DNA from: Tragulus kanchil
Taxonomy: Eukaryota; Chordata; Mammalia; Artiodactyla; Tragulidae
Direction of reading: 5' to 3'
Length of the DNA: 64,000 nt
Assembly: GCA_022376925.1 (NCBI GenBank)
Contig: JAIOJX010000031.1
Coordinates: 140,014,854-140,078,853, forward strand
The position numbers and the translations under genes were made by a program. Shown one piece after another: positions 114 through 62,036 of the stretch. A model generated the notes under the pieces. That model did not search any database, was not told where the DNA came from, and worked only from the letters and a program-made list of their open reading frames with translations. Within the stretch, counting starts at the first letter, position 1; each line of letters opens with the position of its first letter.

Positions 114-304
114 AGACTATTATCTTCAGAAAAATGAGAGAATGCTCATTCACAATTAGTTTCTGGGAGAGACCAGGACATGCTGAGGTTATTACCCCTG
201 AGACAACTCCTGGCTGAAGAATAAATGGATGATACTGCAGTTAACCATCTCATCCAATATCAACCACCACCCCAAAGCTAACCTTGAATCAAAACCCAGT
301 CATT
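114..304. other. Unassigned intergenic or intronic DNA
   Basis: No gene, splice pair or repeat I can name. It holds the left edge of the first duplication. Confidence 0.5.
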
Positions 305-622
305 GGGGCTTCCTAGTCTAGTGGTTAAGAGTTCATCTGCCAATGCAAGAATCATGGGTTTGATCCCTGATTGGTGAAGATCCCACATGCCTCAGAGCAG
401 GTAAGCCAATGTGCCATAACTACTGAGCCCACACGCTGCAACTACAGAAACTCAAATGCCCTAGAGCTAATGCTCTGCAACAAGAGAAGCCACTGCAGTG
501 AGAAGCCTGCACCACACCAAAGAGTAGCTGCTGCTCAGCGTGACTAGAGAAAAGCCCGCCCAGCAATGAAGATCCAGCACAGTCAAAAATCAATTGATCT
601 TAAAAAATAAATAAATAAAAAG
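305..622 (+). mobile_element. CHR-2-like tRNA-Glu SINE
   Basis: A tRNA-Glu-like head (gcttcctagtctagtgg, B-box-like gggtttgatccc) is followed by the characteristic series of 'ctactgagccc', 'gccctagagc', 'caacaagagaagccactgc' and 'actagagaaaagcccg' blocks and a TAAA-rich tail. Near full length, moderately diverged. Confidence 0.8.
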
Positions 623-817
623 GATCACTCAGCCTCAGTTCTCAGGCTCCGAAAAATCTGTTCTAGATCTCTCTCTTGTGTTTCTGTTTCCATTCCTGCC
701 CAGCACTTCCTGAGAAGCTGCAACAACCTCCTACCACATATTCTAGTCCTGATTCCCTTTCATACTCCAATCCATCCTCCAGGTCAGTCTGAGAAATCTT
801 GTTACGAGAATTGCTTT

Positions 818-975
818 GGGGACTTCCCTGGTGGTCCAGCGGCTAAGACCCATGCTCACAGTGCGGGTGGGTTTGACTCCTAGTCAGGGAACTAGATCCC
901 ACAAGCTGCCATGAAGATTAAAGAGCTCATGTGCTGCTGCTAGGATCCAGCACAGCCAAATTAATTAATTAATTA
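818..975 (+). mobile_element. CHR-1-like tRNA-Glu SINE
   Basis: Short SINE starting gggacttccctggtggtcc, with 'cagggaactagatccc' and 'ccagcacagccaaatt' blocks and an (ATTA)n tail. The short body distinguishes it from the CHR-2-like copies. Confidence 0.75.
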
Positions 976-1437
976 CTGCTTTCAAAAATGCCACAGTTTC
1001 AAAAACTGCCCCACATCCTGAACTCCTCACCCAAGCCTCCAAAGTCCCGGCAAGACGGGGCTCCATCCTAGGAGGTCTTGTAACCCACTGAGCTTCACAC
1101 ATCCTGTTTCTCTTCCCGGATTTAACACCTTGTGATCTCAGGACCATCAGCTTCTCGCATGTTTTTTCCAGCTGTGACTTTCTCCCATTTTCTTTGCTAA
1201 ACTCTTAGCCGTCCTCTCAAAGGCCCAGCTCAAATGTTACTAGTCCCGTTTTAAACCATTGGGCCCCATGATGGTAATGTTCTTCCTGTATGTCTACTCT
1301 GCTTAGAGAAAACTCCTTTTTTTACTGCTGAGACCCTGAACAATCCTGGCTGAAAAAATGGATGATACTGCAGTTAACCATCTCATCCAATATCAACCAC
1401 CACCCCAAAGCTAACCTTGAATCAAAACCCAGTCATT

Positions 1438-2108
1438 GGGGCTTCCTAGTCTAGTGGTTAAGAGTTCATCTGCCAATGCAAGAATCATGGGTTTGATCCC
1501 TGATTGGTGAAGATCCCACATGCCTCAGAGCAGGTAAGCCAATGTGCCATAACTACTGAGCCCACACGCTGCAACTACAGAAACTCAAATGCCCTAGAGC
1601 TAATGCTCTGCAACAAGAGAAGCCACTGCAGTGAGAAGCCTGCACCACACCAAAGAGTAGCTGCTGCTCAGCGTGACTAGAGAAAAGCCCGCCCAGCAAT
1701 GAAGATCCAGCACAGTCAAAAATCAATTGATCTTAAAAAATAAATAAATAAAAAGGATCACTCAGCCTCAGTTCTCAGGCTCCGAAAAATCTGTTCTAGA
1801 TCTCTCTCTTGTGTTTCTGTTTCCATTCCTGCCCAGCACTTCCTGAGAAGCTGCAACAACCTCCTACCACATATTCTAGTCCTGATTCCCTTTCATACTC
1901 CAATCCATCCTCCAGGTCAGTCTGAGAAATCTTGTTACGAGAATTGCTTTGGGGACTTCCCTGGTGGTCCAGCGGCTAAGACCCATGCTCACAGTGCGGG
2001 TGGGTTTGACTCCTAGTCAGGGAACTAGATCCCACAAGCTGCCATGAAGATTAAAGAGCTCATGTGCTGCTGCTAGGATCCAGCACAGCCAAATTAATTA
2101 ATTAATTA
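1438..2108 (+). mobile_element. Second copy of the CHR-2-like and CHR-1-like SINE pair (D1)
   Basis: CHR-2-like copy 1438-1755 and CHR-1-like copy 1951-2108, essentially identical to 305-622 and 818-975 including the unrelated DNA between them. They are not independent insertions. Confidence 0.8.
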
Positions 2109-3103
2109 CTGCTTTCAAAAATGCCACAGTTTCAAAAACTGCCCCACATCCTGAACTCCTCACCCAAGCCTCCAAAGTCCCGGCAAGACGGGGCTCCATC
2201 CTAGGAGGTCTTGTAACCCACTGAGCTTCACACATCCTGTTTCTCTTCCCGGATTTAACACCTTGTGATCTCAGGACCATCAGCTTCTCGCATGTTTTTT
2301 CCAGCTGTGACTTTCTCCCCATTTTCTTTGCTAAACTCTTAGCCGTCCTCCCTCAAAGGCCCAGCTCAAATGTTACTAGTCCCTGAAACCTTCTTGATCC
2401 AACTCATTGGGCCCCATGATGGTAATGTTCTTCCTGTATGTCTACTCTGCTTAGAGAAAAGTCTGTCTTCTGCTTGTTATTTATACATGTTTGACCTTAT
2501 TATCTTATTGGACTACATGTAGTCCAAATAGGGAAGGTTACTAAATTATCTTTATGTTTCCCCTCTGTGGCCAGCCCAGAGCGTTACACAGAACAGTGCA
2601 CAAAATATGTATTTTGTGAAAGAAAAATTAATACAAGGGCAGAAAGAGTGCTTCTCTGGCCATGTAGGAGAGTAAGGATGATTTCAGAAAATAAATGAAG
2701 AGGAAAACATGACATGGTTCATATTTACAGGGTGACAGCCCATGAATCCTAATGATCACATGCCCACACAACAGTAATCCAAAGCTAATTCACATCGAGA
2801 TGACACGATCTGAAAATGCATTACTGTTTTGGCATATAAAGGAAAGAATGAACCAACTAATTGATCACTACACCTATTCCTGACACTGGAAAGAGAGCGG
2901 ACGGGCAGCACGGCCTAGTTCACAAGTTCCCTAGCAGAGGCCGACCCCACAGGGCAGAGTGCTTCCGCTGCCACCACCCAGGTCCTTTTCCTTGGCTGAA
3001 TACCAGGCCTGCAGAAGGCCAGGCAGAGGAGTGGCCGCCACTCCGGATGCAGCGGGGAAAAGAGCACACGCCACAACAGCTCCTCCCCACAAAACTCTGC
3101 CCT
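2109..3103. other. Unassigned DNA
   Basis: Mostly non-repetitive by eye, with no convincing exon. Frames opening on either strand at 2861-3350 read through into the SINE and have no recognisable domain. Confidence 0.45.
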
Positions 3104-3118
3104 CAACTTACTACTGGA

Positions 3119-3397
3119 GGGCTTCCCTGGTGGTCCAGTGGGTAAAGAGTCCGCCTTGCAGTGCAAGGGACACCAGTTCGATCCCTTGTCCCAGAAGATC
3201 CTATGTGCCGCAGAGCAGCTGGACCAGAGTGTCCAATTCCGAGCCAGCGCTCTGGAGTGCATGCGCCCAGAGCTGGTGCTCTGCAACGAGAGGCCACTGT
3301 GACAGGAGGCCCACACAGCCAGAGAATAAGATGGATGAAAATAATGGATAACTAAGAAAAAGCTCAGGGCATGAAGTTAAAAAAAAAAAAAAAAAAA
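3119..3397 (+). mobile_element. SINE-X, full length
   Basis: Head gcttccctggtggtccagtg, B-box-like ggt/gttcgatccc, body with 'gagtgcatgcgcccagag', tail aaaataatgg and a long A-run. Flanks resemble a diverged target-site duplication (caacttactactg at 3104, caactttgtactg at 3398). The second copy at 4219-4496 belongs to duplication D2. Confidence 0.85.
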
Positions 3398-4218
3398 CAA
3401 CTTTGTACTGACGATGGGAAGGCAGCCAGAAGATCAGGGCTGGGAAGGTGGAAAGGCAGCTGGAGTCACTCCTGATCCTGTAAGAAGGGGTTCTTGATCC
3501 AACTCATTGGGCCCCATGATGGTAATGTTCTTCCTGTATGTCTACTCTGCTTAGAGAAAAGTCTGTCTTCTGCTTGTTATTTATACATGTTTGACCTTAT
3601 TATCTTATTGGACTACATGTAGTCCAAATAGGGAAGGTTACTAAATTATCTTTATGTTTCCCCTCTGTGGCCAGCCCAGAGCGTTACACAGAACAGTGCA
3701 CAAAATATGTATTTTGTGAAAGAAAAATTAATACAAGGGCAGAAAGAGTGCTTCTCTGGCCATGTAGGAGAGTAAGGATGATTTCAGAAAATAAATGAAG
3801 AGGAAAACATGACATGGTTCATATTTACAGGGTGACAGCCCATGAATCCTAATGATCACATGCCCACACAACAGTAATCCAAAGCTAATTCACATCGAGA
3901 TGACACGATCTGAAAATGCATTACTGTTTTGGCATATAAAGGAAAGAATGAACCAACTAATTGATCACTACACCTATTCCTGACACTGGAAAGAGAGCGG
4001 ACGGGCAGCACGGCCTAGTTCACAAGTTCCCTAGCAGAGGCCGACCCCACAGGGCAGAGTGCTTCCGCTGCCACCACCCAGGTCCTTTTCCTTGGCTGAA
4101 TACCAGGCCTGCAGAAGGCCAGGCAGAGGAGTGGCCGCCACTCCGGATGCAGCGGGGAAAAGAGCACACGCCACAACAGCTCCTCCCCACAAAACTCTGC
4201 CCTCAACTTACTACTGGA

Positions 4219-4496
4219 GGGCTTCCCTGGTGGTCCAGTGGGTAAAGAGTCCGCCTTGCAGTGCAAGGGACACCAGTTCGATCCCTTGTCCCAGAAGATC
4301 CTATGTGCCGCAGAGCAGCTGGACCAGAGTGTCCAATTCCGAGCCAGCGCTCTGGAGTGCATGCGCCCAGAGCTGGTGCTCTGCAACGAGAGGCCACTGT
4401 GACAGGAGGCCCACACAGCCAGAGAATAAGATGGATGAAAATAATGGATAACTAAGAAAAAGCTCAGGGCATGAAGTTAAAAAAAAAAAAAAAAAA
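4219..4496 (+). mobile_element. SINE-X, D2 duplicate
   Basis: Same insertion as 3119-3397, including flanks, offset by the D2 unit. Confidence 0.85.
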
Positions 4497-4589
4497 CAAC
4501 TTTGTACTGACGATGGGAAGGCAGCCAGAAGATCAGGGCTGGGAAGGTGGAAAGGCAGCTGGAGTCACTCCTGATCCTGTAAGAAGGGG

Positions 4590-5110: not shown

Positions 5111-5388
5111 GCTTTTTAATATGTATTTATTTACGTGTTTATCTGGCTGCATCAGGTCTTAGCTGTGGCACATGGGATCCCTATTGTGTCACGTGGGGTC
5201 TCTTGTTACAGCACCTGGATCCTCTAGGTGCGGAGCCTTGGCTCCTGAGAATGCAGGCTCTGTAGTTCCAGCACACTGGTTCCGTTGCTCCTTGGCGTGT
5301 GGGATCTGACTTCCCCAACCAGGGATCAAACCCACGTCTTCTGCATTGCCAGGTGGCGTCTCAACCACTGGACCATCAGGGAAGTCCC
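5111..5388 (-). mobile_element. tRNA-Glu-derived SINE, reverse orientation
   Basis: Reading rightwards it begins with a T-rich (ATTT)n tail and ends in 'ggaccatcagggaagtccc', the reverse complement of the gggacttccc head; 'agggatcaaaccca' is the inverted B box. Diverged body of CHR type. Confidence 0.7.
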
Positions 5389-5829
5389 ACAGATTGCATA
5401 TTTTCATATTTAAAAAAGTGAGAACATCAGTGCCACCTTACTGATGGTCTCCTGTTCAGGAATTATTAGTTCTCATCATGTCTGGGTCTTCCCTATCAGT
5501 ACCTTCTGGAGTAACCGTGCCTGCCTCCGGTCCACCACTGGTCTACGTGACTCTCTGCCAAACAGCATGAAACCTGACATAATCCAGAGACATGGCTAGC
5601 ATCACAGACTAAGTCCCCGTAGGCCCTGAAGCAATAGCCAATGGAATTCAGGATCAGGGCACGACGGGGGCCCACATGATGGGCTGGACACTGACCAGGC
5701 TGCAGTTGTGCTGAAGTGACCCGCGTGAGTCAGGCAAGTGGAGAAGAGGGGAAAAGCATCCCATGTTGAAACCAAAACAGCACAAAGGCTGAGAGGAAAT
5801 CAACGTGCAGTGAAGAAATGAGAGGACCC

Positions 5830-6110
5830 GGGCCTCCCTGGTAGGGCTGTGGAGAAGATTCCCTAGCCAATGCAGAGACACGGGTTCGATCCAGGAAGAT
5901 TCCATATGCTGTGGAGCAACTAAAGTCTGTGCACCACAGCTCCGGAGCCGGGGCCGCGAGAGCCTGTGCTCTGCAAGAGGAGCCTCCGCAACGAGAAGCT
6001 CATGCACCTCAGCAAAAAGCAGCCCCTGCTCACCGCAACTCGAGAAAGCCCCTGGGCAGCAACAAAGACCACTGCAGCCAAAAGTAAATAAATCATGTTT
6101 AAAAAGAACA
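5830..6110 (+). mobile_element. CHR-2-like SINE with target-site duplication
   Basis: Head 'gggcctccctggtagggc', blocks 'cgcaacgagaagctc' and 'gcaactcgagaaagcccc', tail 'ccaaaagtaaataaat'. Flanked by a direct repeat aagaaatgagaggacc (about 5814-5829 and 6111-6126), evidence of target-primed insertion. Duplicate at about 6972-7252. Confidence 0.8.
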
Positions 6111-6971
6111 AGAAATGAGAGGACCTCCCTCTGAAGATCAGTGAGAGCGACTCTCTGGCACACTCTATCAGACGGTCATTGCCCCGAGCATGGGTTTGCC
6201 TATTATGTTCACCCAAATAGCCGCAGAGCCTAGATCTACACCTGACACATGGGCCCCAACCTCCAAAACAGCTTCGGGCTTTTTTTCTGATTATAAAATG
6301 AATATCATAAAATACTAGATGCGCACTGTAGAAGACCCGGGCCATACAGAAAAGCTGAACGCGACGGTCATCATCAGAAGTCTCCCCGGCCACAGAATAC
6401 CTCTACCACCAGTTTGGTAAACCCAGCCTAGTGAGCTGGCCATCCCTTTTAGACTTCCCAACCAGGGATCAAACCCACGTCTTCTGCATTGCCAGGTGGC
6501 GTCTCAACCACTGGACCATCAGGGAAGTCCCACAGATTGCATATTTTCATATTTAAAAAAGTGAGAACATCAGTGCCACCTTACTGATGGTCTCCTGTTC
6601 AGGAATTATTAGTTCTCATCATGTCTGGGTCTTCCCTATCAGTACCTTCTGGAGTAACCGTGCCTGCCTCCGGTCCACCACTGGTCTACGTGACTCTCTG
6701 CCAAACAGCATGAAACCTGACATAATCCAGAGACATGGCTAGCATCACAGACTAAGTCCCCGTAGGCCCTGAAGCAATAGCCAATGGAATTCAGGATCAG
6801 GGCACGACGGGGGCCCACATGATGGGCTGGACACTGACCAGGCTGCAGTTGTGCTGAAGTGACCCGCGTGAGTCAGGCAAGTGGAGAAGAGGGAACAGCA
6901 TCCCATGTTGAAACCAAAACAGCACAAAGGCTGAGAGGAAATCAACGTGCAGTGAAGAAATGAGAGGACCC

Positions 6972-7252
6972 GGGCCTCCCTGGTAGGGCTGTGGAGAAGA
7001 TTCCCTAGCCAATGCAGAGACACGGGTTCGATCCAGGAAGATTCCATATGCTGTGGAGCAACTAAAGTCTGTGCACCACAGCTCCGGAGCCGGGGCCGCG
7101 AGAGCCTGTGCTCTGCAAGAGGAGCCTCCGCAACGAGAAGCTCATGCACCTCAGCAAAAAGCAGCCCCTGCTCACCGCAACTCGAGAAAGCCCCTGGGCA
7201 GCAACAAAGACCACTGCAGCCAAAAGTAAATAAATCATGTTTAAAAAGAACA
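6972..7252 (+). mobile_element. CHR-2-like SINE, D3 duplicate
   Basis: Same insertion and same flanking direct repeats as 5830-6110. Confidence 0.8.
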
Positions 7253-7567
7253 AGAAATGAGAGGACCTCCCTCTGAAGATCAGTGAGAGCGACTCTCTGG
7301 CACACTCTATCAGACGGTCATTGCCCCGAGCATGGGTTTGCCTATTATGTTCACCCAAATAGCCGCAGAGCCTAGATCTACACCTGACACATGGGCCCCA
7401 ACCTCCAAAACAGCTTCGGGCTTTTTTTCTGATTATAAAATGAATATCATAAAATACTAGATGCGCACTGTAGAAGACCCGGGCCATACAGAAAAGCTGA
7501 ACGCGACGGTCATCATCAGAAGTCTCCCCGGCCACAGAATACCTCTACCACCAGTTTGGTAAACCCA

Positions 7568-7925
7568 ACAGCCTAATTCTTGGAATTCCTAACGCAGTGT
7601 TCTAGCAGAGCATTTCGTGAGTTTCAGCTCTCAGAGACTTATGTAGGTAAGGCTTAATACTTCATTATTTGGTTTGACACAACCTCATGCTAGAGAGAAA
7701 TAAATCCGCCTCTGCTCTCTGTTTCTGCTCGACAGAAACAATAATGCAATCTGAAGGCCGCCCTCCATCACCCTCTTTCTGAATCACTTGATAAAAGTGC
7801 TGGAAAAGTCCCTCTTTCTGAGCGTCCGTGCCATCGGCATCGTCTGGAAAATATTGATGTATTCATGCTTTTTGCAAGGCCAGAAACAATGCACCGGTGA
7901 GCAAAAGCTCTCCAAAAGAAAGGTC
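7568..7925. other. Unassigned low-repeat DNA
   Basis: No repeat recognised. A 67-residue plus-strand frame at 7788 runs partly into the downstream L1 poly-T and is not supported as a gene. Confidence 0.4.
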
Positions 7926-8778
7926 TTCAGGCTTTCTTTTTTTATTTTTTTTGATTTACTAAGAGATAGCATAGTTTTATTAAGTCAGTAATGAGCTCAG
8001 TATAATTCACATTTTTTTTTAACTTTTACTTTACTTTTAACTTTTACAGAGTTTTGTTGTTTACAGATATGTATGTTCCCAGATTAGTCATATGTATATC
8101 CCCCCTTCCCACCCCTCCCAACCATCACACAGCACACCTGAAGGATCCCCTTTTCTCACAGAGCAATGACTAGAGCTAGTTTCTTCACTTATGATAGTAC
8201 AGGCCTTCATGCTACTTCCTTTACGCCTCCCACCCTCTGTTCCTTCCCCACAATGTCCATATGTCCACTGTCCATGTCTGTCTTTCTGTCGCTTCACTGT
8301 GTGTGCCATCATCACCATCCTACTAGATTCCATATATATGTGTTAATATACTGTATTTGTCCTTCTCTTTCTGACTGACTTCACTTTTGATGATACGTTC
8401 TAGATCCAGTCACCTCATGAGGGCTGATTCTTCTGCATTTCTCTTTACAGCTGTGTAGTATTCCATTGTATATATGGACCAGAGCTTTTGGATCCATTCG
8501 TTCGTCGACGGACATCTAGGTTGCTTCCATGTTCTAGCTACTGTATAGAGAGCTGCAATGAACATTGGGGTACAGGTGCTTCTTTCAGATTTAATTTCAT
8601 CAGAGTATAAGCCTTAGAGTGGGATTGCTAGGTGCTTTTATTTTTAGTTTTTTAAGAAATCTCCGGACTGTCTTCCACAGCGGCTGTATCAACCTACATT
8701 CCCTTTTCTCTGCACCCTCTCCAGCATTTATTGTCTGTTGATTTGTGGATGATGGCCATTCCTTCAGGCTTTCTTACA
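7926..8778 (-). mobile_element. 5'-truncated L1, 3' end, with 14-bp target-site duplication
   Basis: Antisense to the top strand: T-rich 3' end, L1 3' UTR, then the ORF2 C-terminus read in reverse ('ctgtgtagtattccattg', 'agagagctgcaatgaac', 'gtcttccacagcggctg'). Direct repeats cttcaggctttctt at 7926-7939 and about 8765-8778 bound it. The ORF2 frame is broken, so the element is dead. Confidence 0.85.
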
Positions 8779-9026: not shown

Positions 9027-9242
9027 TTGTTGTTTAGCCACTAAATTGTGTCTCACCCCTTTGGGGCTTCATGGACTGTAGCCTTCCAGTAATCTGTTCA
9101 TGAGATTCTCCAGGAAAGAAAACTGGAGCAGGTTGCCATTTCCTTCTCCAGGGGATCTTCCTGACCTAGGTATCGAACCCGTATCTCCTATGTCTCCTGC
9201 ATTGGCAGGCAGATTCTTTATCACTGAGCCACCAAGGAAGCC
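9027..9242 (-). mobile_element. Bov-tA SINE, reverse orientation
   Basis: Begins with ttgttgttgtttagccac (reverse of the Bov-tA tail), contains 'ggatcttcctgacc' and 'cctgcattggcaggcag', and ends with the inverted tRNA-like head 'gagccaccaaggaagcc'. Confidence 0.85.
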
Positions 9243-9257
9243 AAGCAAATATTTGTT

Positions 9258-9570
9258 ATGCAATCGCTAAGTCTTGTCTGACTCTTTGTGACCCCATGGA
9301 CTGCAGCACGCCAGGATTCCCTGTCCTTCACCATCTCCCAGAGTTTGCTCAAACTCATGTCCATTGAGTTGGTGATGCCATCGCTTCCCCAGCATCATAT
9401 TGGACATCTATCGACCTGAGGGGTTCATCTTTCAGTGTCATATCTTTTTGCCTTTTCATACTCTTCATGGGATTCTCAAGGTAAGAATGCTGAAGTGGTT
9501 TGCCATTCCCTTCCAGCATCTTGGGTGGCCCTACACGGCATGTCTCATAGTTTCATAATTAGGCAAAGTT
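9258..9570 (-). mobile_element. BovB/ART2-derived RTE fragment
   Basis: Shows gtcttgtctgactctttgtg, 'cagcacgccaggattccctg' and 'gtccattgagttggtgatgc', the reverse complement of the BovB 3' region. The distal part near 9420-9570 is more diverged. It abuts the Bov-tA at 9027-9242. Confidence 0.75.
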
Positions 9571-10363
9571 GTGGTCTCTGTGATCAGAATATACAGCAAC
9601 TAAATAAAGTCTGTGTCAACTCAGAGGTAAACCTACACTCAGTAATCTCTTCTCATTGTAGAATACCATTAATATTTGTTTCTGGGGTTTTCTGCCCTTT
9701 TCCACTCATTCCTTCTCGTCTGTTACAACAAAAAGCACTAACGGAGCCATTGATCTTTGTCAAGGAAGAGCGGATACAGACAGCGTGATTCATACTTTCA
9801 GGTGTTTATTCTAAAGGATATGAGGCCATTTTATCTGAAGTGTTCACCTTTTACAGAAGGGGTGGTTATCTCTGAAGGCAGTCATTAGATATGGGTACAA
9901 AATGAATCAACAAGAGCTGCTCACATGACTCCTGAACGCTCCACAGCTCCTGTGAGCAGGCTGTGTTCCCTTGCTAAAGGCACGCAAGAGCGCACAGATG
10001 CTGGGTAATCCATCAGCCATCCAAAGTAGTCCCCTTTGCTGTGATTTAACAAGAAAGGGTGCATTCGATGCAAGATGTCCCCTAAATCAGGCATTTTTAC
10101 TGCGGCTCCCCGGCATCCAGGCACCCATGTTCCTGTCCACGAGGACCGTCCTGCCCAGCAGAGAACCACCTGGGCAGGCAGCAATTAGCTCCTTCTCACC
10201 AGAGACCTCGGCTGCCTGGCAGAGTGCACAGAACACCTCTGTCAGACCATGACTACTCAGCAAGCTGCCAACCAACGTCGAACCCGTATCTCCTATGTCT
10301 CCTGCATTGGCAGGCAGATTCTTTATCACTGAGCCACCAAGGAAGCCAAGCAAATATTTGTTA

Positions 10364-10675
10364 TGCAATCGCTAAGTCTTGTCTGACTCTTTGTGACCCC
10401 ATGGACTGCAGCACGCCAGGATTCCCTGTCCTTCACCATCTCCCAGAGTTTGCTCAAACTCATGTCCATTGAGTTGGTGATGCCATCGCTTCCCCAGCAT
10501 CATATTGGACATCTATCGACCTGAGGGGTTCATCTTTCAGTGTCATATCTTTTTGCCTTTTCATACTCTTCATGGGATTCTCAAGGTAAGAATGCTGAAG
10601 TGGTTTGCCATTCCCTTCCAGCATCTTGGGTGGCCCTACACGGCATGTCTCATAGTTTCATAATTAGGCAAAGTT
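10364..10675 (-). mobile_element. BovB/ART2 fragment, D4 duplicate
   Basis: Second copy of 9258-9570; only the last part of the adjoining Bov-tA (10278-10346) is repeated with it. Confidence 0.75.
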
Positions 10676-11103
10676 GTGGTCTCTGTGATCAGAATATACA
10701 GCAACTAAATAAAGTCTGTGTCAACTCAGAGGTAAACCTACACTCAGTAATCTCTTCTCATTGTAGAATACCATTAATATTTGTTTCTGGGGTTTTCTGC
10801 CCTTTTCCACTCATTCCTTCTCGTCTGTTACAACAAAAAGCACTAACGGAGCCATTGATCTTTGTCAAGGAAGACGCGGATACAGACAGCGTGATTCATA
10901 CTTTCAGGTGTTTATTCTAAAGGATATGAGGCCATTTTATCTGAAGTGTTCACCTTTTACAGAAGGGGTGGTTATCTCTGAAGGCAGTCATTAGATATGG
11001 GTACAAAATGAATCAACAAGAGCTGCTCACATGACTCCTGAACGCTCCACAGCTCCTGTGAGCAGGCTGTGTTCCCTTGCTAAAGGCACGCAAGAGCGCA
11101 CAG

Positions 11104-11676
11104 ATGCTGGGTAATCCATCAGCCATCCAAAGTAGTCCCCTTTGCTGTGATTTAACAAGAAAGGGTGCATTCGATGCAAGATGTCCCCTAAATCAGGCAT
11201 TTTTACTGCGGCTCCCCGGCATCCAGGCACCCATGTTCCTGTCCACGAGGACCGTCCTGCCCAGCAGAGAACCACCTGGGCAGGCAGCAATTAGCTCCCT
11301 TCTCACCAGAGACCTCGGGCTGCCTGGCAGAGTGCACAGAACACCTCTGTCAGACCATGACTACTCAGCAAGCTGCCAACCAACGTCGTCCCTTTGCTCT
11401 TTCCCTGGACGATTTTCATTCGGGTTCTTGTCCACAGCCGACCTCCTGACAGCGCAGAGTTGCAGCCTCCCTCCCCCAGCAGGCTCCATCTCTGTCTGCT
11501 GTCTCGGACAAACACCTGCCCCTGACGCCAAAGGCCATTCCTCAGGCTGCCTGCTTTCTCCAGCCTTTGCTACACGGCTTTTGCTTGCTGGCTTTCACTC
11601 AAACGTCATACACTTACTTTCTTTTAATGAAGTGGCATGTAAACAACTCCCCCTCACCACTCCCCTAAGCAATTAG
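11104..11676 (+). other. Unrecognised 190-codon open frame, probably non-coding
   Basis: The longest ATG-started frame here that is not built from a recognised repeat. It is rich in Ser, Leu and Pro and I recognise no domain, signal peptide or membrane segment in it. The duplication copy at about 12175-12747 has the same frame. The copy before 10278 is cut by a junction. GC-rich composition lowers stop frequency, so chance is plausible. I see no promoter, and no splice pair was established around it. Confidence 0.2.
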
Positions 11677-11715
11677 AGGGGAGTGTCCCAGAAGCTGGTT
11701 CATCCTGGAAAGTCA

Positions 11716-12099
11716 GGGTATTGGTAACACTGCAACTTCCTGGGTCTGAATCACTTACTAACCAAGAAAGCCTGAATGAAATATTAATACTGAACATCGT
11801 TATGCCTCAGTTTCCTCATCTGTGAAATGAGGATAATAGCTCAGTTGGTAAAGAATCTGCCTGCAATGCAGGAGACCTGGGTTCAATCCCTGGGTTGGGA
11901 AGATCCCCTGGAGAAGGGAAAGGCTACCCACTCCAGTATTCTGGCCTAGAGAATTCCATGGCTTGTCCACGGGTCACAAAGAGTCAGACACGACAGAGTG
12001 ACTTTCACTTTCACAAGCCCCAAGTGTTGCTATGAGGATTTCATGAGTTAATATAGGCCAGTCCCACACAATGGTGCCTGACGAGAGTAGGCCCTCAGT
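11716..12099 (+). mobile_element. MIR split by a Bov-tA insertion
   Basis: The MIR core 'tgcctcagtttcctcatctg' (about 11811-11830) ends at 'aatgaggata'. After the Bov-tA it resumes with 'gttgctatgaggatttcatg' and ends in 'cctgacgagagtaggccc', the MIR 3' end. Repeated at about 12788-13173 and partly at 13900-14255 by duplications D5 and D6. Confidence 0.85.
11837..12016 (+). mobile_element. Bov-tA SINE inside MIR
   Basis: Head tagctcagttggtaaagaat, B box gggttcaatccc, then the BovA monomer 'ggaagatcccctggagaag', 'ccactccagtattctgg', 'gagtcagacacgacagag'. Appears three times (also about 12907-13087 and 13979-14167) because of duplications. This copy differs at ctggcctagagaattcc against cttgcctagagaatgcc in the other two. 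Confidence 0.9.
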
Positions 12100-43270: not shown

Positions 43271-43274
43271 ATCA

Positions 43275-43782: not shown

Positions 43783-43789
43783 CAGCCTT

Positions 43790-45128: not shown

Positions 45129-45134
45129 TCTCAT

Positions 45135-45630: not shown

Positions 45631-45636
45631 TCTCAT

Positions 45637-48735: not shown

Positions 48736-48885
48736 ATGAAATCAGATTTCTTGTTTGGAACAGGAGGGCCGGTTTGTCCAATTAAGTGCTCTGGCAGACG
48801 ATTTCCATAAACTAAATGGGCTCAGTTTACAACTCCTGGATTTTGCTCAGCATATAGTTAAAATTTGCATATAATAAACAGGCAA

Positions 48886-49127
48886 GGGCTTCCCTGGTGG
48901 TCCAGTGAGTAAAGAGTCCTCCTTGCAGTGCAAGGGGCGCTGGTTGGATCCCTGGCCTGGGAGAATCCCACCCACCGAGCGGCTGGACCGGTGTGTCTAA
49001 TTAGGAGCCAGCCCTCTGCAACGAGAGAGACCATTGCAATGATAGGCCTACCCAGGCCGAAGAATAAAAGTGGATAAAAAATAATAATAAAAAAAATAAA
49101 AGAGGCCAAATTTAAAAAAAAAAAAAA
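48886..49127 (+). mobile_element. SINE-X with internal deletion
   Basis: Head and B box present, but the block around the usual gcatgcgcccag is missing (gccagccctctgcaacg). Tail AATAATAAAAAA. Duplicate about 49982-50223. Confidence 0.85.
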
Positions 49128-50280
49128 GTGAAAATGGTAAGGATAATCTCCGCAACCTCTTTAGAAGTACAATGGAAAATACCTATGTTCACACAAAGAC
49201 TCAGATGTGAATGTTCACATGGGCATTATTCACAATAGTCAAAAAACAGAAACAATTTCAAAGTCCATCAACTGGCATAGGGATAAGAAGTAAAACTGCA
49301 GTATATCCACACAGTGAAATATTATTTGGCCATAAAAAGGAAGTATTGAAAAATGTTACTCAGGAAGATCCCCTGGAAAAGGGCATGGCAACCCCCCCCC
49401 CAGTATTCTTGTCTGGAGAATCCCATGGACAGAGAAGCCAGGCGGGCTACAGTCCACAGGGTCGAAAAAGAGTCGGACATGACTGAGTGACTAACACCCT
49501 CATTGTCGGTGATATATGGTACAACATGAATGGCCCTCAAAAAAATTTATGCTAAAGTAAAAGCCAGTCATGAAAGACTACATACCATATCATGACTCCA
49601 TTTATATGAACCATCCAGAAAATGTGAATCCATTGCAACAGAAACAAAATCCTTAGTGGACAGGGTGAAATGAGGAGTGACTGAAAATGGACATGGTATA
49701 TTTTTGGTGTCACAGAAATGTTCTAAAATTGATTGTGGTGATAACTTACGGAGTTTACTAACAATTAAGAAATTTAAAATAAGTAGATTCTATGGTGTAT
49801 AAATGATACCTCAATAAGCTATATTTTGAAAATGAAATCAGATTTCTTGTTTGGAACAGGAGGGCCGGTTTGTCCAATTAAGTGCTCTGGCAGACGATTT
49901 CCATAAACTAAATGGGCTCAGTTTACAACTCCTGGATTTTGCTCAGCATATAGTTAAAATTTGCATATAATAAACAGGCAAGGGCTTCCCTGGTGGTCCA
50001 GTGAGTAAAGAGTCCTCCTTGCAGTGCAAGGGGCGCTGGTTGGATCCCTGGCCTGGGAGAATCCCACCCACCGAGCGGCTGGACCGGTGTGTCTAATTAG
50101 GAGCCAGCCCTCTGCAACGAGAGAGACCATTGCAATGATAGGCCTACCCAGGCCGAAGAATAAAAGTGGATAAAAAATAATAATAAAAAAAATAAAAGAG
50201 GCCAAATTTAAAAAAAAAAAAAAGTGAAAATGGTAATGATATCCTCCGCAACCTCTTTAGAAGTACAATGGAAAATACCT

Positions 50281-50895: not shown

Positions 50896-51864
50896 TTCAA
50901 GAGTAATCTTGACCTAACTGATTTTCCTCAGGCCCTGAGCTCCCAAACGAGACCAGCCCTGCTAACCCTGCTATCCTTGTTCAGATGCCTCTTTCAGACG
51001 AGAGCAGAACGGTCTTGATCGCTCCTACACACCCAGCCTAGCCAACGCTGGCTTCAGACCCCACTCAGACACCAATCTAGATGCGAAGGATACAAGATGA
51101 ACAAACATAAGAGCACTAGCCTGGGAAAAATTATTAACAAACATTAAGCAGTCAAAAGAGTTATTAAATTACAGAAGCAACATCACAACTGTGCGTAGCC
51201 AGCAAGGATGTGGAGGCCGGAGGCTAATGGTGCAACAGGAGGATACCAATGCCTGAAAACTTTATCCATATGAACTGCTTTAAATATCAAAATATCCTAC
51301 CGGTAAGTTCTGTTACTAACCCATTTTAAGGAAGATAAAACGGAGGCACAGAGAGGTTCTGGAACTCAGCGGAGGTCACACAGCTCAAGGGATCTACCCA
51401 GATGCCTAACTACCCTGACTCCAGAAAGAAGCCCGGTGTCCTCGCCAAATTTGCTGTCTCAGTAAATGTGGGAGGAAGGAAGGAAAGGACGCAGCCACAG
51501 CAGATTAGCAGGAGTTCTGTTAAATACTTAAAGGGGCAGCGGGCTAAGGAAAGGCTGATCCAGACAGCCCCGGCCTGCACCAAGCAAGGACTTGCCAAGA
51601 CAGGAGGGAAAGGGGACTTGCTAGAGTGTAAAAGGAGGCAGGAGGGACCCTGAGTGGCTGCTGGAGCTGCCAAATTCTCTCCACCCCCAACTAGCCACTT
51701 CCCAGATGGGGAAACTGAGGCCTCCAAGGAGCGGAAAACCGAGATTCTGAGGCACTAGCTCCGCCTGGGCCTCCCTGAGCTTCTATCCTCGAGGTCACTT
51801 GGGGCACTGGAACTGGGCTGCAGCGAGGCCAGACCAGACCCGCCTGTCCTTGGAGACAGCTTAC
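50896..51864. other. Mostly unassigned DNA with short MIR/L2-like traces
   Basis: 'ggcacagagaggttctgg' and 'gaggtcacacagctcaag' (about 51346-51390) match the antisense MIR/L2 phrase; 'gatggggaaactgaggcc' at about 51705 is similar. A minus frame of 105 codons (51410-51727) has no recognised domain. Confidence 0.4.
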
Positions 51865-52093
51865 CTGGCCGCACAGTGTTCCCACAGCGCCCTTCCTGCA
51901 GCTTCTCCCGTTCCTCCTTGTCCGCCTGCCTTTGGCCCCGCCCAGAGGCCCCGCCCCTAGGGGCGGAGGCACCTCCCGGAGGCCCCGCCCACGGGATTTA
52001 CCTGGCCAGCAAAGCTGCCAACAGCGCCCCTGTCCGCGGGGAGGCGCAGATCCCGCACAGCTTTGTCCACAGCTCGTTTCCACTTCTCGCGAG
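51850..52093 (-). promoter_or_regulatory. CpG island with GC boxes: candidate promoter and 5' exon
   Basis: CpG-dense, TATA-less. GC boxes ggccccgccc and ggggcgg cluster at 51934-51990. On the minus strand actcgcgagaag at 52083-52094 is 9 of 10 for the TCTCGCGAGA core-promoter motif. Two minus-strand donors follow, ccag/gtaaat (exon end 52002) and ccag/gtaagc (exon end 51865). No ATG lies between motif and donors, so any exon would be 5' non-coding. The gene is not identified. Duplicate about 52994-53238. Confidence 0.5.
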
Positions 52094-52195
52094 TTTTTCT
52101 CTTTCCTCTTCTTGTTACTTCTTCCTTTCCCTATATCTCTGTCACTCCTTTCCCTTCTCTCCCTTTCTTTTGTTTCCTTTGTCTTTCATTTTTTT
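52094..52195 (+). repeat. Pyrimidine-rich tract
   Basis: About 100 bases almost entirely C and T next to the CpG island. It appears three times because of D20 and D21. Confidence 0.75.
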
Positions 52196-53158
52196 CAACC
52201 AAAGAGCCGCTGTTTCATTCAGAAAGTATCTGTGTGCCAGAAACTCGTCAAGACATTGAGGGATATACTGCAGAAAAGACAAAATGTATTCTAGTAGATG
52301 CACGGCTTTTAATCATTTTACCAACATCACAACTGTGCGTAGCCAGCAAGGATGTGGAGGCCGGAGGCTAATGGTGCAACAGGAGGATACCAATGCCTGA
52401 AAACTTTATCCATATGAACTGCTTTAAATATCAAAATATCCTACCGGTAAGTTCTGTTACTAACCCATTTTAAGGAAGATAAAACGGAGGCACAGAGAGG
52501 TTCTGGAACTCAGCGGAGGTCACACAGCTCAAGGGATCTACCCAGATGCCTAACTACCCTGACTCCAGAAAGAAGCCCGGTGTCCTCGCCAAATTTGCTG
52601 TCTCAGTAAATGTGGGAGGAAGGAAGGAAAGGACGCAGCCACAGCAGATTAGCAGGAGTTCTGTTAAATACTTAAAGGGGCAGCGGGCTAAGGAAAGGCT
52701 GATCCAGACAGCCCCGGCCTGCACCAAGCAAGGACTTGCCAAGACAGGAGGGAAAGGGGACTTGCTAGAGTGTAAAAGGAGGCAGGAGGGACCCTGAGTG
52801 GCTGCTGGAGCTGCCAAATTCTCTCCACCCCCAACTAGCCACTTCCCAGATGGGGAAACTGAGGCCTCCAAGGAGCGGAAAACCGAGATTCTGAGGCACT
52901 AGCTCCGCCTGGGCCTCCCTGAGCTTCTATCCTCGAGGTCACTTGGGGCACTGGAACTGGGCTGCAGCGAGGCCAGACCAGACCCGCCTGTCCTTGGAGA
53001 CAGCTTACCTGGCCGCACAGTGTTCCCACAGCGCCCTTCCTGCAGCTTCTCCCGTTCCTCCTTGTCCGCCTGCCTTTGGCCCCGCCCAGAGGCCCCGCCC
53101 CTAGGGGCGGAGGCACCTCCCGGAGGCCCCGCCCACGGGATTTACCTGGCCAGCAAAG

Positions 53159-55435
53159 CTGCCAACAGCGCCCCTGTCCGCGGGGAGGCGCAGATCCCGC
53201 ACAGCTTTGTCCACAGCTCGTTTCCACTTCTCGCGAGTTTTTCTCTTTCCTCTTCTTGTTACTTCTTCCTTTCCCTATATCTCTGTCACTCCTTTCCCTT
53301 CTCTCCCTTTCTTTTGTTTCCTTTGTCTTTCATTTTTTTCAACCAAAGAGCCGCTGTTTCATTCAGAAAGTATCTGTGTGCCAGAAACTCGTCAAGACAT
53401 TGAGGGATATACTGCAGAAAAGACAAAATGTATTCTAGTAGATGCAGACGGCTTTTAATCATTTTTACCACCTCCTACAGTTGCAATACATTTTACATCA
53501 CTTTCTAGTAAACACAGACACATACACATGCACGTATATGAAACGGAAACTCAGTTCACAAAACGGTCCTTACCTTGCAGACTATGAGCATCTCCAAAGA
53601 TGACCAGGAAACCTGCTATCAAGCAAAGCTAATTTTGCTAAACTTGCTGCAGTTATGGAGAATACCACCTCCACAATCTGAGTAGGAGAGGTGAGGAAAG
53701 GAAATTTATAGGGTTGGGGTCTGGACTTAGGTAGTTCAAAGCAGGTCTTTCCAGAAAGGAATCAATTGTAATTAGGCAAATGCCACGACATAGTATTTTA
53801 GGATTGGTGAACACAGCAAAGCAAAGATCTTAAAGCAAGTTAAATAAGTAAAACTGCTGTTCAGTAGGCAAGCTGTTTTCCCAGACAACCAACCCTGATG
53901 GAGATCCTGGTGGGAGAGTCCATCTAGCAAATCCTCCAGATAAATAGGCTTGGATGAAATCCCTAGTATTCATTGGTTTACAGCCTTTCTTAACTGGGCA
54001 CAGATTCATTTTTTCTGTAGTCTATAGGTCAAAGCAAGAGTAGAGAGCACCCAGATGGATGAGTATGAGATGCAGACAGACCTCTTGATGTAGGAACGTC
54101 AAAGAATTGGTGACCATCTTAAATGCCCCCTACTCAGGTTATTTAGAAAAGAAGGAATTCTTTCTTCTGAGCTAAAGAAAAAAGAGGGATCTGATAGACT
54201 GTGTGGCTTGCTTGGGCATTGCAGTTAAACGTTCTTCCACGAACACCTAAATGTGAGTTTTGGTCCACTTTCTAGTGCCAACTTTAGTCTCAAAGACTTT
54301 CTTCTGCCAACAGCGCCCTGTCCGCGGGAGGCGCAGATCCCACAGCTTTGTCCACAGCTCGTTTCCACTTCTCGCGAGTTTTTCTCTTTCCTCTTCTTGT
54401 TACTTCTTCCTTTCCCTATATCTCTGTCACTCCTTTCCCTTCTCTCCCTTTCTTTTGTTTCCTTTGTCTTTCATTTTTTTCAACCAAAGAGCCGCTGTTT
54501 CATTCAGAAAGTATCTGTGTGCCAGAAACTCGTCAAGACATTGAGGGATATACTGCAGAAAAGACAAAATGTATTCTAGTAGATGCAGACGGCTTTTAAT
54601 CATTTTTACCACCTCCTACAGTTGCAATACATTTTACATCACTTTCTAGTAAACACAGACACATACACATGCACGTATATGAAACGGAAACTCAGTTCAC
54701 AAAACGGTCCTTACCTTGCAGACTATGAGCATCTCCAAAGATGACCAGGAAACCTGCTATCAAGCAAAGCTAATTTTGCTAAACTTGCTGCAGTTATGGA
54801 GAATACCACCTCCACAATCTGAGTAGGAGAGGTGAGGAAAGGAAATTTATAGGGTTGGGGTCTGGACTTAGGTAGTTCAAAGCAGGTCTTTCCAGAAAGG
54901 AATCAATTGTAATTAGGCAAATGCCACGACATAGTATTTTAGGATTGGTGAACACAGCAAAGCAAAGATCTTAAAGCAAGTTAAATAAGTAAAACTGCTG
55001 TTCAGTAGGCAAGCTGTTTTCCCAGACAACCAACCCTGATGGAGATCCTGGTGGAGAGTCCATCTAGCAAATCCTCCAGATAAATAGGCTTGGATGAAAT
55101 CCCTAGTATTCATTGGTTTACAGCCTTTCTTAACTGGGCACAGATTCATTTTTTCTGTAGTCTATAGGTCAAAGCAAGAGTAGAGAGCACCCAGATGGAT
55201 GAGTATGAGATGCAGACAGACCTCTTGATGTAGGAACGTCAAAGAATTGGTGACCATCTTAAATGCCCCCTACTCAGGTTATTTAGAAAAGAAGGAATTC
55301 TTTCTTCTGAGCTAAAGAAAAAAGAGGGATCTGATAGACTGTGTGGCTTGCTTGGGCATTGCAGTTAAACGTTCTTCCACGAACACCTAAATGTGAGTTT
55401 TGGTCCACTTTCTAGTGCCAACTTTAGTCTCAAAG
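53159..55435. repeat. Direct duplication pair D21 (offset about 1140-1145 bp)
   Basis: Left unit about 53159-54295, right unit about 54304-55435. Right-unit start errors: cgccctgtccgcgggagg against cgcccctgtccgcggggagg, and atcccacagc against atcccgcacagc. Confidence 0.92.
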
Positions 55436-55824
55436 TTGGACTTAGTGGCCCTGAACAGTTTTTCCCTTTCTGTGAATCACATCAGACAGTGAATCAGGCT
55501 GGTGTTGCTCAGGTCTATTGTTGTATCGACGTTCAAAGACATCATTAGTTTTTTTATTTAAAAATCCTTGTTCTTGTCTCTGAGAGAGGTGTTTTACTTG
55601 TCTGGGCTATGGAGTGGGGAATAACGGGGAGTGGCCAGCCTACAAAGCAACATGAAATATACATAGCAATCAGAGGTGTTTCTTTCTTTTTGCGGGGCGG
55701 GTAGGGGAGTAGCTATTGGCTATTGAGCGAGCTACTTGTAACTAATAATATCATATCCAGAAATTACTCCCCATAAAACTCATAAACCTAGGGAAAAAAG
55801 GTTAACATAAAAGCAATTATTTGG
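53471..55824. other. Unassigned DNA, partly duplicated
   Basis: Between the CpG-island copies and the next SINE I recognise no repeat family or exon. Collapsing D21 leaves about 1.3 kb. Confidence 0.4.
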
Positions 55825-56049: not shown

Positions 56050-56207
56050 ATGTTTTCAACTCCCCTAGGTACTTCATATAAGTGGAATCATACAATGTTT
56101 GCCCTTTTGTAACTGGCTTATTTGACTTAGCATAATATCCTCAAGGCTGATCCCTGTTTTAGCATGTGTCAGAATTTCCTTCTTTTTAAGGCTAAATAAT
56201 ACTCCAC
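56050..56207 (-). mobile_element. L1M fragment, reverse orientation
   Basis: 'catataagtggaatcataca', 'gtaactggcttatttgac' and 'ggctaaataatactccac' are antisense L1M 3' sequence. Confidence 0.75.
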
Positions 56208-56595
56208 TGTGATATAGGCTGAATATTCATGTTCCTCCCGAACTCATATACTGAAGCTCTGACTCCCATTGTGGGCATATTTGGAGAAAGACCCTTTGAA
56301 GAGGTAAATGAGGTTAAACGAGGTCATAAGGGTAGAGCCCTGTTCCTATAGAATTAGTGTCCTTATGAGAAGAGACATCAGAGAGTCCTCCCTCCCTCCC
56401 TCCCTCCCTCCCTCTCTCTCTCTCATACCTCCACCTACCCACCTTCCTATGACTGCCACTCAGCAAATACACACCTGTGCTCACACGCACACACAGGCAC
56501 AGCCATGGGAAGACCCAGTGATAAGCAGGTGTCTGCAATTCAATCAGAGAACTCTCACCTGGCACTGAATCAGCTGGAGCCTTGATCAGCCCTGT
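56208..56595 (+). mobile_element. MaLR-type LTR containing a (CCCT)n/(CT)n microsatellite
   Basis: 'gatataggctgaatattcat', 'catatactgaagctctgac', 'taaacgaggtcataaggg' and 'gtccttatgagaagagac' match MST/MLT1-like LTRs. It is interrupted at 56387-56424 by CCCT then CT repeats; the 3' part is weak. Duplicate about 57292-57680. Confidence 0.65.
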
Positions 56596-56687
56596 AGGTC
56601 AGCGTAAGAGCAGAGTCATCAGACCAGTATCCAGTCTCTTGCCTTGGAACTTCCTCTTATAGACTCCCAGTAAAAAGTGAGGAGAAT

Positions 56688-56944
56688 AGGGCTTCCCTGG
56701 TGGCCCAGTGGGTAAGGACACCGCCTTGCAGTGCAAGAGGCACCGGTTTGATCCCTGGCCTGGGAAGATCCCACATGCTGCTGAGCGGCTGAACCGGTGT
56801 GTCCCATTAAGAGCCGGAGCTCTGGAGCGCATGCGCCCAGAGCCAGTGCTCTACAACGAGAGAGGCCACTGCGGTGGGAGGCCAGGAAATGGAGATGGAC
56901 GAAAACAGGTAAGTGAAAGACCAATACAAGTGGCCAAAAGAAAC
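56688..56944 (+). mobile_element. SINE-X with target-site duplication
   Basis: Flanks aagtgaggaga at 56675-56685 and 56945-56955. 'gagcgcatgcgcccagagcc', short tail without a long A-run. Duplicate about 57772-58028. Confidence 0.9.
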
Positions 56945-58364
56945 AAGTGAGGAGAGCAGACAGAAATCATGCAGTAACACTGTTACCAACAAGAAAGGTT
57001 TCTACCAAGAAGAAAAGGTTTCAAACCGGAGGTCATCAGAGATTCCTAAAACAGTTCCCTCCTTCTTAAGACAAACTGAGGTCAACGTTTAAGAACTCAG
57101 CAACAAGAAATCAGCTCTTGTGAGACACGCAGACTGTCAGGGTCACAAAAACTCCTGAGCAGGAGGGGCCAGAGGCCTAACCTACTTGAGAGTCTAAAAT
57201 TATCCCTGGGAGGCGTCCTCAGCTGAGTCCTGGGGAGTGTCAGTGCCTGAGAAGACCACCAGAAAACCCACTGACCTAAATAATACTCCACTGTGATATA
57301 GGCTGAATATTCATGTTCCTCCCGAACTCATATACTGAAGCTCTGACTCCCATTGTGGGCATATTTGGAGAAAGACCCTTTGAAGAGGTAAATGAGGTTA
57401 AACGAGGTCATAAGGGTAGAGCCCTGTTCCTATAGAATTAGTGTCCTTATGAGAAGAGACATCAGAGAGTCCTCCCTCCCTCCCTCCCTCCCTCCCTCTC
57501 TCTCTCTCATACCTCCACCTACCCACCTTCCTATGACTGCCACTCAGCAAATACACACCTGTGCTCACACGCACACACAGGCACAGCCATGGGAAGACCC
57601 AGTGATAAGCAGGTGTCTGCAATTCAATCAGAGAACTCTCACCTGGCACTGAATCAGCTGGAGCCTTGATCAGCCCTGTAGGTCAGCGTAAGAGCAGAGT
57701 CATCAGACCAGTATCCAGTCTCTTGCCTTGGAACTTCCTCTTATAGACTCCCCGGAAAAAGTGAGGAGAATAGGGCTTCCCTGGTGGCCCAGTGGGTAAG
57801 GACACCGCCTTGCAGTGCAAGAGGCACCGGTTTGATCCCTGGCCTGGGAAGATCCCACATGCTGCTGAGCGGCTGAACCGGTGTGTCCCATTAAGAGCCG
57901 GAGCTCTGGAGCGCATGCGCCCAGAGCCAGTGCTCTACAACGAGAGAGGCCACTGCGGTGGGAGGCCAGGAAATGGAGATGGACGAAAACAGGTAAGTGA
58001 AAGACCAATACAAGTGGCCAAAAGAAACAAGTGAGGAGAGCAGACAGAAATCATGCAGTAACACTGTTACCAACAAGAAAGGTTTCTACCAAGAAGAAAA
58101 GGTTTCAAACCGGAGGTCATCAGAGATTCCTAAAACAGTTCCCTCCTTCTTAAGACAAACTGAGGTCAACGTTTAAGAACTCAGCAACAAGAAATCAGCT
58201 CTTGTGAGACACGCAGACTGTCAGGGTCACAAAAACTCCTGAGCAGGAGGGGCCAGAGGCCTAACCTACTTGAGAGTCTAAAATTATCCCTGGGGAGGGG
58301 CGTCCTCAGCTGAGTCCTGGGGGAGTGTCAGTGCCTGAGAAGACCACCAGAAAACCCACTGACC

Positions 58365-59482: not shown

Positions 59483-59844
59483 AGGGGGTTTGGAAGGCGG
59501 AACTGTCCTAGATGGATAGTCAGGAAGACTTTCCTGAAGTGGTAATATTTACACGAAGTTTTAGATGAGACATTGTCATCCAAGCACAGAGGACAGTAAA
59601 TGCAAAGGCTCCGAGGCTGGAGAAGACGGGCATGTGCCAGGAGCTAGTCAGAGGTCCAGCACTCCTAGGGGCTAGAGGTGAACCCACAACCACATCCAGG
59701 GATAACATGCTCACCACGAAGAAGAGCAGGAACTTGTGAAGGAGCTTAAAGAGGGGATGCTGATGGCAGCAGAGGGAGGGAGGTAAATTTGTGTAGAGCA
59801 GCAGCAAGTCTCCTGGAGACAAGTGAATTCTATGTTGCTAGGCA

Positions 59845-60063
59845 TGTGCATGTGTGCGTGGTCAGTTATGTCCGACTCCTTTGCAGCCTCATGGATTGTA
59901 GCCCACGAGGCTCCTCAGTGCATGGGATTTTCCAGGCGAGAATACTAGAGTGGGCTGCCATTTCCTTCTGCAGGGAATCTTCCCAACTCAGGGACCGAAC
60001 TCATGTCTCCTGTTTCTCCTGCATTGCCGGTGGATGCTTTACCACCTGAGCCACAGGGGAAGT
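59845..60063 (-). mobile_element. Bov-tA SINE, reverse orientation
   Basis: 'ggtcagttatgtccgactcc', 'gggctgccatttccttctg' and inverted head 'tgagccacaggggaag'. Duplicate about 60930-61146. Confidence 0.9.
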
Positions 60064-60135
60064 TTCTAAGTAGCACATTGCAAAGGCCCCGAAGCAGAAA
60101 AAGCAGAAATTTGGAGGAACATACACTCAAAGTGA

Positions 60136-60327
60136 GGCTTCCCAGGTGGCATTAGTGGTAAAGATCCCGCCTGCCAATGCAGGAGACATATGAGATATGG
60201 GTTTGATCCTGGGTCAGGAAGATCCCCTGGAGAAGGAAGTGGCAAGCCACTCCAGTATTCTTGCCTGGAGAATCCCATGGACGGAGGAGCCTAGCAGGCT
60301 ATAGTCCATGGGGTTACAAAGAGTTGG
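60136..60327 (+). mobile_element. Bov-tA SINE with target-site duplication
   Basis: Head ggcttcccaggtggcattag, 'gatcccctggagaaggaag', 'gtattcttgcctggagaatc'. Flanks ta[c/t]actcaaag before and after. Forms an inverted pair with the copy 70 bases upstream. Duplicate about 61219-61411. Confidence 0.9.
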
Positions 60328-61639
60328 AGGTATACTCAAAGAGATTTGCCCTTAGACCAGGTTCAGACATGCCCACCTGGCTCTCACATACTTTTGAAGG
60401 AAGGCTGCATCTCTTAATCCGTGCCTTGTTGGGAGAATAATGAGACAGTATCTATCTATCAACATTTAAATGTTTAATAGTCCTTGAAACAGCCATCCCA
60501 TTGCTAGAAATACAGTTCATATAAAATTTATGCATAAGCACAAAGATCCATGTTCATGAATGTGATGGTTTATTTGGGGTCAGTCTAAAATCCCAAGATG
60601 CCCAGATAGTTTATGAACTGTTATTCTAGATTTTTCTGTTTTAGGATAAGATTTACATTTAAATGGACATTGAGTAAAACAGACTGCCCTCCATAATGTG
60701 GGTGGGTCTCATCCAATCAGCTGAAGGCCTGAATAGAGGTCCAGCACTCCTAGGGGCTAGAGGTGAACCCACAACCACATCCAGGGATAACATGCTCACC
60801 ACGAAGAAGAGCAGGAACTTGTGAAGGAGCTTAAAGAGGGGATGCTGATGGCAGCAGAGGGAGGGAGGTAAATTTGTGTAGAGCAGCAGCAAGTCTCCTG
60901 GAGACAAGTGAATTCTATGTTGCTAGGCATGTGCATGTGCGTGGTCAGTTATGTCCGACTCCTTTGCAGCCTCATGGATTGTAGCCCACGAGGCTCCTCA
61001 GTGCATGGGATTTTCCAGGCGAGAATACTAGAGTGGGCTGCCATTTCCTTCTGCAGGGAATCTTCCCAACTCAGGGACCGAACTCATGTCTCCTGTTTCT
61101 CCTGCATTGCCGGTGGATGCTTTACCACCTGAGCCACAGGGGAAGTTTCTAAGTAGCACATTGCAAAGGCCCCGAAGCAGAAAAAGCAGAAATTTGGAGG
61201 AACATACACTCAAAGTGAGGCTTCCCAGGTGGCATTAGTGGTAAAGATCCCGCCTGCCAATGCAGGAGACATATGAGATATGGGTTTGATCCCTGGGTCA
61301 GGAAGATCCCCTGGAGAAGGAAGTGGCAAGCCACTCCAGTATTCTTGCCTGGAGAATCCCATGGACGGAGGAGCCTAGCAGGCTATAGTCCATGGGGTTA
61401 CAAAGAGTTGGAGGTATACTCAAAGAGATTTGCCCTTAGACCAGGTTCAGACATGCCCACCTGGCTCTCACATACTTTTGAAGGAAGGCTGCATCTCTTA
61501 ATCCGTGCCTTGTTGGGAGAATAATGAGACAGTATCTATCTATCAACATTTAAATGTTTAATAGTCCTTGAAACAGCCATCCCATTGCTAGAAATACAGT
61601 TCATATAAAATTTATGCATAAGCACAAAGATCCATGTTC

Positions 61640-62036
61640 ATGAATGTGATGGTTTATTTGGGGTCAGTCTAAAATCCCAAGATGCCCAGATAGTTTATGA
61701 ACTGTTATTCTAGATTTTTCTGTTTTAGGATAAGATTTACATTTAAATGGACATTGAGTAAAACAGACTGCCCTCCATAATGTGGGTGGGTCTCATCCAA
61801 TCAGCTGAAGGCCTGAATAGAGCAAAAGACTGACCTCTTTGAGCAAGAGGAAATTCTCCAAACAGATGACCTTCAGGCTTTAACTGCAGCCTTGACTCTT
61901 TTCCTGGGTCCCGCGCTACAGATTTTAGCCTCCAAAAGCACATGGGCCAATTCTTTAAAATACATCTCTCCCTATGTGTATATATCCAACTCATTCTGTT
62001 TCTCTGGCAACTGGTTACATAGCTATCTTAACGGAA
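61640..62036 (+). mobile_element. Old ERVL/MaLR-type LTR
   Basis: 'tgatggtttatttggggtca', 'gatgcccagatagtttatg', 'ctccataatgtgggtgggtc', 'catccaatcagctgaaggcc', 'ttctgtttctctggcaac' follow a widespread mammalian LTR; family name not assigned. The first 180 bases also occur at about 60556-60738. Confidence 0.65.

Follow-up and report, generated by a model that had tools for sequence, protein, structure and literature searches.

Regular head-to-tail repeats of about 1.1 kb in a 64-kb mammalian sequence as probable untrimmed assembly overlaps

Among the false homotype duplications distinguished in the available text of Rhie et al. 2021 (PMC8081667), one type is named 'overlapping sequences at contig boundaries'; in the cases treated there, the duplicated length often equals that of a corrected read and a gap lies between the copies after scaffolding. 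How false duplications alter gene counts, with false gains of genes and exons, is the subject of Ko et al. 2022 (PMC9516828), as far as the text at hand goes. Here we analysed a stretch of 64 kb of DNA (the window), in which a first-pass annotation had reported 23 direct duplications and read them as overlaps left untrimmed when pieces were joined. This reading was supported by the nearly constant length of the overlap, its occurrence at unrelated sequences, the head-to-tail joins, triple overlaps and directional indels, and judged from the letters of the window we consider it very probable that the pairs are untrimmed overlaps between successive assembly pieces. About 25 of the 64 thousand letters are thus probably spurious repeats introduced by assembly software.

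Head-to-tail pairs across the window

Self-comparison of the window with 20-mers gave 48 direct-repeat runs longer than 100 bp, and their offsets were 1063-1161, 710-715 or 2142-2285 bp without exception, the last group being present because adjacent pairs overlap. The 48 runs make up 23 pairs, direct and head to tail, that are 96.9-100% identical (indels counted by base, end-anchored alignment). All 23 pairs of the first-pass annotation were found again by self-comparison and alignment, and its figures held closely: for offsets given as ~1063-1163 bp (22 pairs) and ~715 bp (one pair), end-anchored alignment measured 1063-1158 bp in 22 of 23 pairs (mean 1108.5, s.d. 27.0) and 715 bp in the one outlying pair, and for a spacing of 1.8-5.0 kb, successive junctions lay 1805-4988 bp apart (22 intervals). 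That the left unit ends where the right begins also agreed with local alignments in windows around each seed pair, which placed the unit-to-unit gap between -6 and +21 bp for every one of the 23 pairs, in a test that is not wholly free because the left window stopped where the core match on the right begins; the end-anchored alignment fixes the junction and makes the gap 0 by construction. The pairs occupy about 178-61,822 of the window and their offsets sum to 25,103 bp of 64 kb, matching the ~25 kb of false sequence estimated earlier. The window holds no N bases, and no gap marks the seams.

Boundaries of the pairs were taken from local together with end-anchored alignment, and are given here by end-anchored alignment as left and right unit, offset and identity, with no strand assigned. 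Identity was lowest in pair 1 (178-1323 and 1324-2478; 1146 bp, 96.9%) and complete in pair 10 (23640-24733 and 24734-25827; 1094 bp, 100%) and pair 18 (44896-45999 and 46000-47103; 1104 bp, 100%). Apart from the short pair 15 (37837-38551 and 38552-39266; 715 bp, 98.2%), offsets ranged from that of pair 7 (14700-15762 and 15763-16837; 1063 bp, 98.8%) to that of pair 16 (40064-41221 and 41222-42382; 1158 bp, 98.0%). Upstream of pair 7 lie pair 2 (2391-3490 and 3491-4589; 1100 bp, 99.9%), pair 3 (5297-6430 and 6431-7575; 1134 bp, 98.5%), pair 4 (9173-10277 and 10278-11385; 1105 bp, 99.7%), pair 5 (11029-12099 and 12100-13172; 1071 bp, 99.5%) and pair 6 (12825-13904 and 13905-14989; 1080 bp, 99.4%). 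Between pairs 7 and 15 the series continues with pair 8 (19671-20750 and 20751-21826; 1080 bp, 99.3%), pair 9 (21457-22588 and 22589-23730; 1132 bp, 99.0%), pair 11 (25598-26707 and 26708-27823; 1110 bp, 99.1%), pair 12 (30032-31136 and 31137-32250; 1105 bp, 98.2%), pair 13 (31986-33103 and 33104-34241; 1118 bp, 97.1%) and pair 14 (33821-34919 and 34920-36016; 1099 bp, 99.5%). The remaining stretch carries pair 17 (42817-43951 and 43952-45085; 1135 bp, 99.2%), pair 19 (48088-49183 and 49184-50279; 1096 bp, 99.7%), pair 20 (51178-52321 and 52322-53468; 1144 bp, 99.7%), pair 21 (53159-54303 and 54304-55443; 1145 bp, 99.0%), pair 22 (56192-57275 and 57276-58363; 1084 bp, 99.5%) and pair 23 (59650-60734 and 60735-61818; 1085 bp, 99.7%).

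Repeated 100-mers cover 36,369 positions of the window. As a chance control, none of 20 mononucleotide shuffles contained more than three repeated 16-mers. The window yielded 30 direct BLAST pieces but no inverted match above 95% identity and 200 bp. Removal of one copy per pair left 38,904 bp, and in this collapsed sequence none of 326 self-matches exceeded 97% identity and 100 bp; 30 of the 60 best-scoring ones had 76-88% identity, as expected of ordinary dispersed repeats.

Several other elements were seen along the window. A query that we take to be the end of the ruminant tRNA-type SINE had eight matches with up to three mismatches (none expected by chance), at 11979, 13050 and 14130, at 24256 and 25350, at 29380, and at 48372 and 49468. 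Given the pairs, these eight come down to four loci, an example of an inflated repeat count. An open frame at 30239-30421 (minus strand) is similar to the C terminus of LINE-1 ORF2 (E 1.7e-9); a second diverged, LINE-1-like 3' end lies around 8410-8613 (minus strand), called by eye from the reading frame, and the two are ~86% alike over 579 bp of collapsed sequence mapped by hand. Together with the SINE matches, the ORF2 match suggests that the DNA is nuclear and from a ruminant. An AT-rich array of ~0.95 kb extends over 36056-37000, where Tandem Repeats Finder reports several overlapping periods, the best-scoring of 238 bp. It stands ~0.8 kb before the 715-bp overlap and, at a guess, may have affected how a unit was placed there. 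A (CACG)n microsatellite of ~12 copies is found at 63095-63143, and an Rfam search of the whole window at gathering thresholds gave no match.

Tiling of the pieces and the side of the differences

Cut at its 23 junctions, the window yields 24 pieces, of which 22 are complete. The overlaps hardly vary in length, with a coefficient of variation of 2.4% (22 of 23 overlaps, the 715-bp pair left out), whereas that of piece length is 34% (22 complete pieces). Complete pieces span 1.8-5 kb, the shortest measuring 1805 bp, and five of the 22 cluster at the short end, at 1805-1858 bp. Half of them (11 of 22) fall below twice the mean overlap in length, which leaves a stretch of 88-421 bp that is covered by three pieces in each case. 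Such nested overlaps are what a tiling path gives. Short pieces also follow one another: pieces 4-5-6, 8-9-10 and 12-13 form consecutive runs in which every piece is below 2217 bp.

If the pairs are overlaps, one piece would terminate with each left unit and its successor would begin with the right unit. The copy at a piece end, where support is thinnest, should then be the worse of the two. Across the overlaps, local alignments showed in the outer quarters 56 indels where the terminal piece lacked bases and six where the other copy did (p 3e-11), whereas in the inner half there were 15, split 8 to 7 between the copies. End-anchored alignments gave 72 indels on the predicted side against 17 within 150-bp zones; the bias was 48 against 5 where the left unit ends and weaker, 24 against 12, over the 150 bp with which the right unit starts. 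Counted by terminus (n = 46), 23 were for the predicted side, three against, and 20 tied or without indels. These sign tests take indels or termini as independent. We infer from the indels that the joins are piece boundaries.

The kind of difference also bears on its origin. Homopolymer runs of three or more account for 9% of runs and 22% of bases but held 35 of the 77 indels, a bias such as long-read errors would produce. As far as the indels go, the differences appear to reflect consensus error and not haplotypes. The 44 substitutions, which did not enter the counts by side given above, were spread evenly, with 24 in the outer quarters and 20 in the inner half, and some of them may be heterozygous sites. 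Clusters of substitutions between copies were seen at 40180-40198 and 32303-32310 and may mark heterozygous positions or a local fault of the consensus.

The triple overlaps allow the odd copy to be named. Across 11 sites, 2851 columns agreed and 136 disagreed; the odd copy was the end of the left piece in 114 columns, the start of the right piece in 20 and the middle piece in one, and all three differed in one, so that piece ends were odd in 134 columns versus one for the middle. By site, an odd piece end occurred in 11 of 11 and an odd middle in one. The columns are uneven, 49 coming from piece 1 (88-bp overlap, poorly aligned) and 36 from piece 13, yet with both pieces left out the count was still 50 versus 1 for piece ends. 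The pattern suggests that piece ends carry errors of sequencing and consensus rather than mutations.

Alternative origins and a candidate assembler

Young tandem duplications would also be head to tail and highly identical, and the even spread of substitutions between copies would agree with real duplication. For the window, this would mean many recent duplications of ~1.1 kb by a fixed-step process of replication or repair, and no mutational process with such an outcome is known to us. Near-identical lengths in 22 of the 23 pairs, at unrelated sequences, overlap between consecutive duplications in 11 of 22 pieces, the directional indels at seam-side ends and a middle copy that is almost never odd in the triple overlaps all speak against it, and we give this explanation practically no credence.

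Two technical origins were also weighed. Gap filling, in which short contigs alternate with long-read fills that each keep a flank of ~1.1 kb on both sides, would likewise produce a fixed overlap and error-rich ends of the fills. The fills would, however, measure at least ~2.2 kb, and triple overlaps should be absent or occur at most at every second piece, whereas the short pieces noted above (4-5-6, 8-9-10 and 12-13, each below 2217 bp) follow directly on one another; this origin is very unlikely. Tiled PCR amplicons or clones concatenated untrimmed would have an overlap that is constant by design and products of variable length, but ends defined by primers should be clean, whereas here the ends hold most of the missing bases, and no other sign points to amplicons; the chance that they are the source seems equally slim. 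All three alternatives, namely real duplication, gap filling and amplicons, were rejected on these grounds.

In the reading that we favour, the window consists of 24 pieces of one mammalian, ruminant-like locus, joined end to end so that each overlap of ~1.1 kb appears twice. Most probably, a long-read assembler laid out short units of 1.8-5 kb, successive units having a fixed-length node in common; a consensus was made per unit, and the shared ends were neither aligned nor trimmed at joining. We infer both the nature of the units, as assembly pieces, and the step at which the failure came, the joining of consensus sequences. The first-pass annotation had proposed the joining of overlapping fragments. 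The joining of overlapping pieces stands, but with complete pieces of just 1.8-5 kb and no N at the joins, they resemble consensus units inside a single contig more than separate contigs that a scaffolder has joined.

As to the program, we see about an even chance that an assembler of the wtdbg/wtdbg2 kind lies behind the artefact, an identification that is weak. In these programs, a node is 1024 bp and neighbouring nodes share at most 256 bp, hence the shortest unit has 1792 raw bp; unit lengths come in steps of 256 raw bp, and one consensus is made per edge between nodes. As Ruan and Li are said to have described in 2020, each unit shares a fixed-length node with its neighbour, so that trimming is needed at joining. 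The limits of 1024, 256 and 1792 bp are roughly close to the 1108, 88-421 and 1805 bp of the window. The overlap of the window is nevertheless ~84 bp longer than the node, its triple overlaps (up to 421 bp) exceed 256 bp, and no single scaling or fixed extension accounts jointly for the overlap, the shortest piece and the triple overlap. A 256-bp step was not detected in the piece lengths (Rayleigh P = 0.28), and the best period within 200-319 bp was 228 bp (P = 0.28). Simulated power was 0.9-1.0 at 1% length scatter, 0.23-0.51 at 2.4% and 0.06-0.08 at 4%; this null result says little either way because power is low if the lengths scatter like the overlaps. Programs of the wtdbg family were used for the genomes of mule deer (PMC9650288) and sika deer (PMC10372904), according to the available text of these reports, and nothing ties the window to either. 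The word wtdbg is absent from the main text of Ko et al. 2022 (PMC9516828).

Consequences and relation to known false duplications

If the reading as untrimmed overlaps is true, counts of genes, exons and repeats from the scaffold are inflated and distances are stretched by about 64/39. We regard it as possible, though rather doubtful, that a public ruminant assembly has nearly all of its unit joins untrimmed, genome-wide or over long regions, with up to ~39% of the length there being false. The signature at piece ends, a fixed overlap with directionally missing bases and odd ends in triple overlaps, might serve as a read-free detector of such assemblies, and the present case suggests that artefacts of this kind can be recognised without reads.

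By title and opening of the abstract, none of the literature matches listed evidently described untrimmed joins of ~1.1 kb, and we claim no novelty. The tandem duplications of PMC8228171, in the text available from it, are a different matter from the pairs of the window. The situation resembles that of Ko et al. 2022 (PMC9516828) in that sequence is counted twice, and the survey, as its accessible text describes it, concerns other assemblies. There is a close likeness to the boundary overlaps in the available text of Rhie et al. 2021 (PMC8081667), where one locus likewise stands twice in tandem with overlaps at the boundaries left unmerged. Unlike the cases described there, the overlaps of the window are near 1.1 kb (22 of 23), lack N and recur once every 1.8-5 kb, and from their sequence the pairs very probably belong to false homotype duplication, in a dense and regular form.
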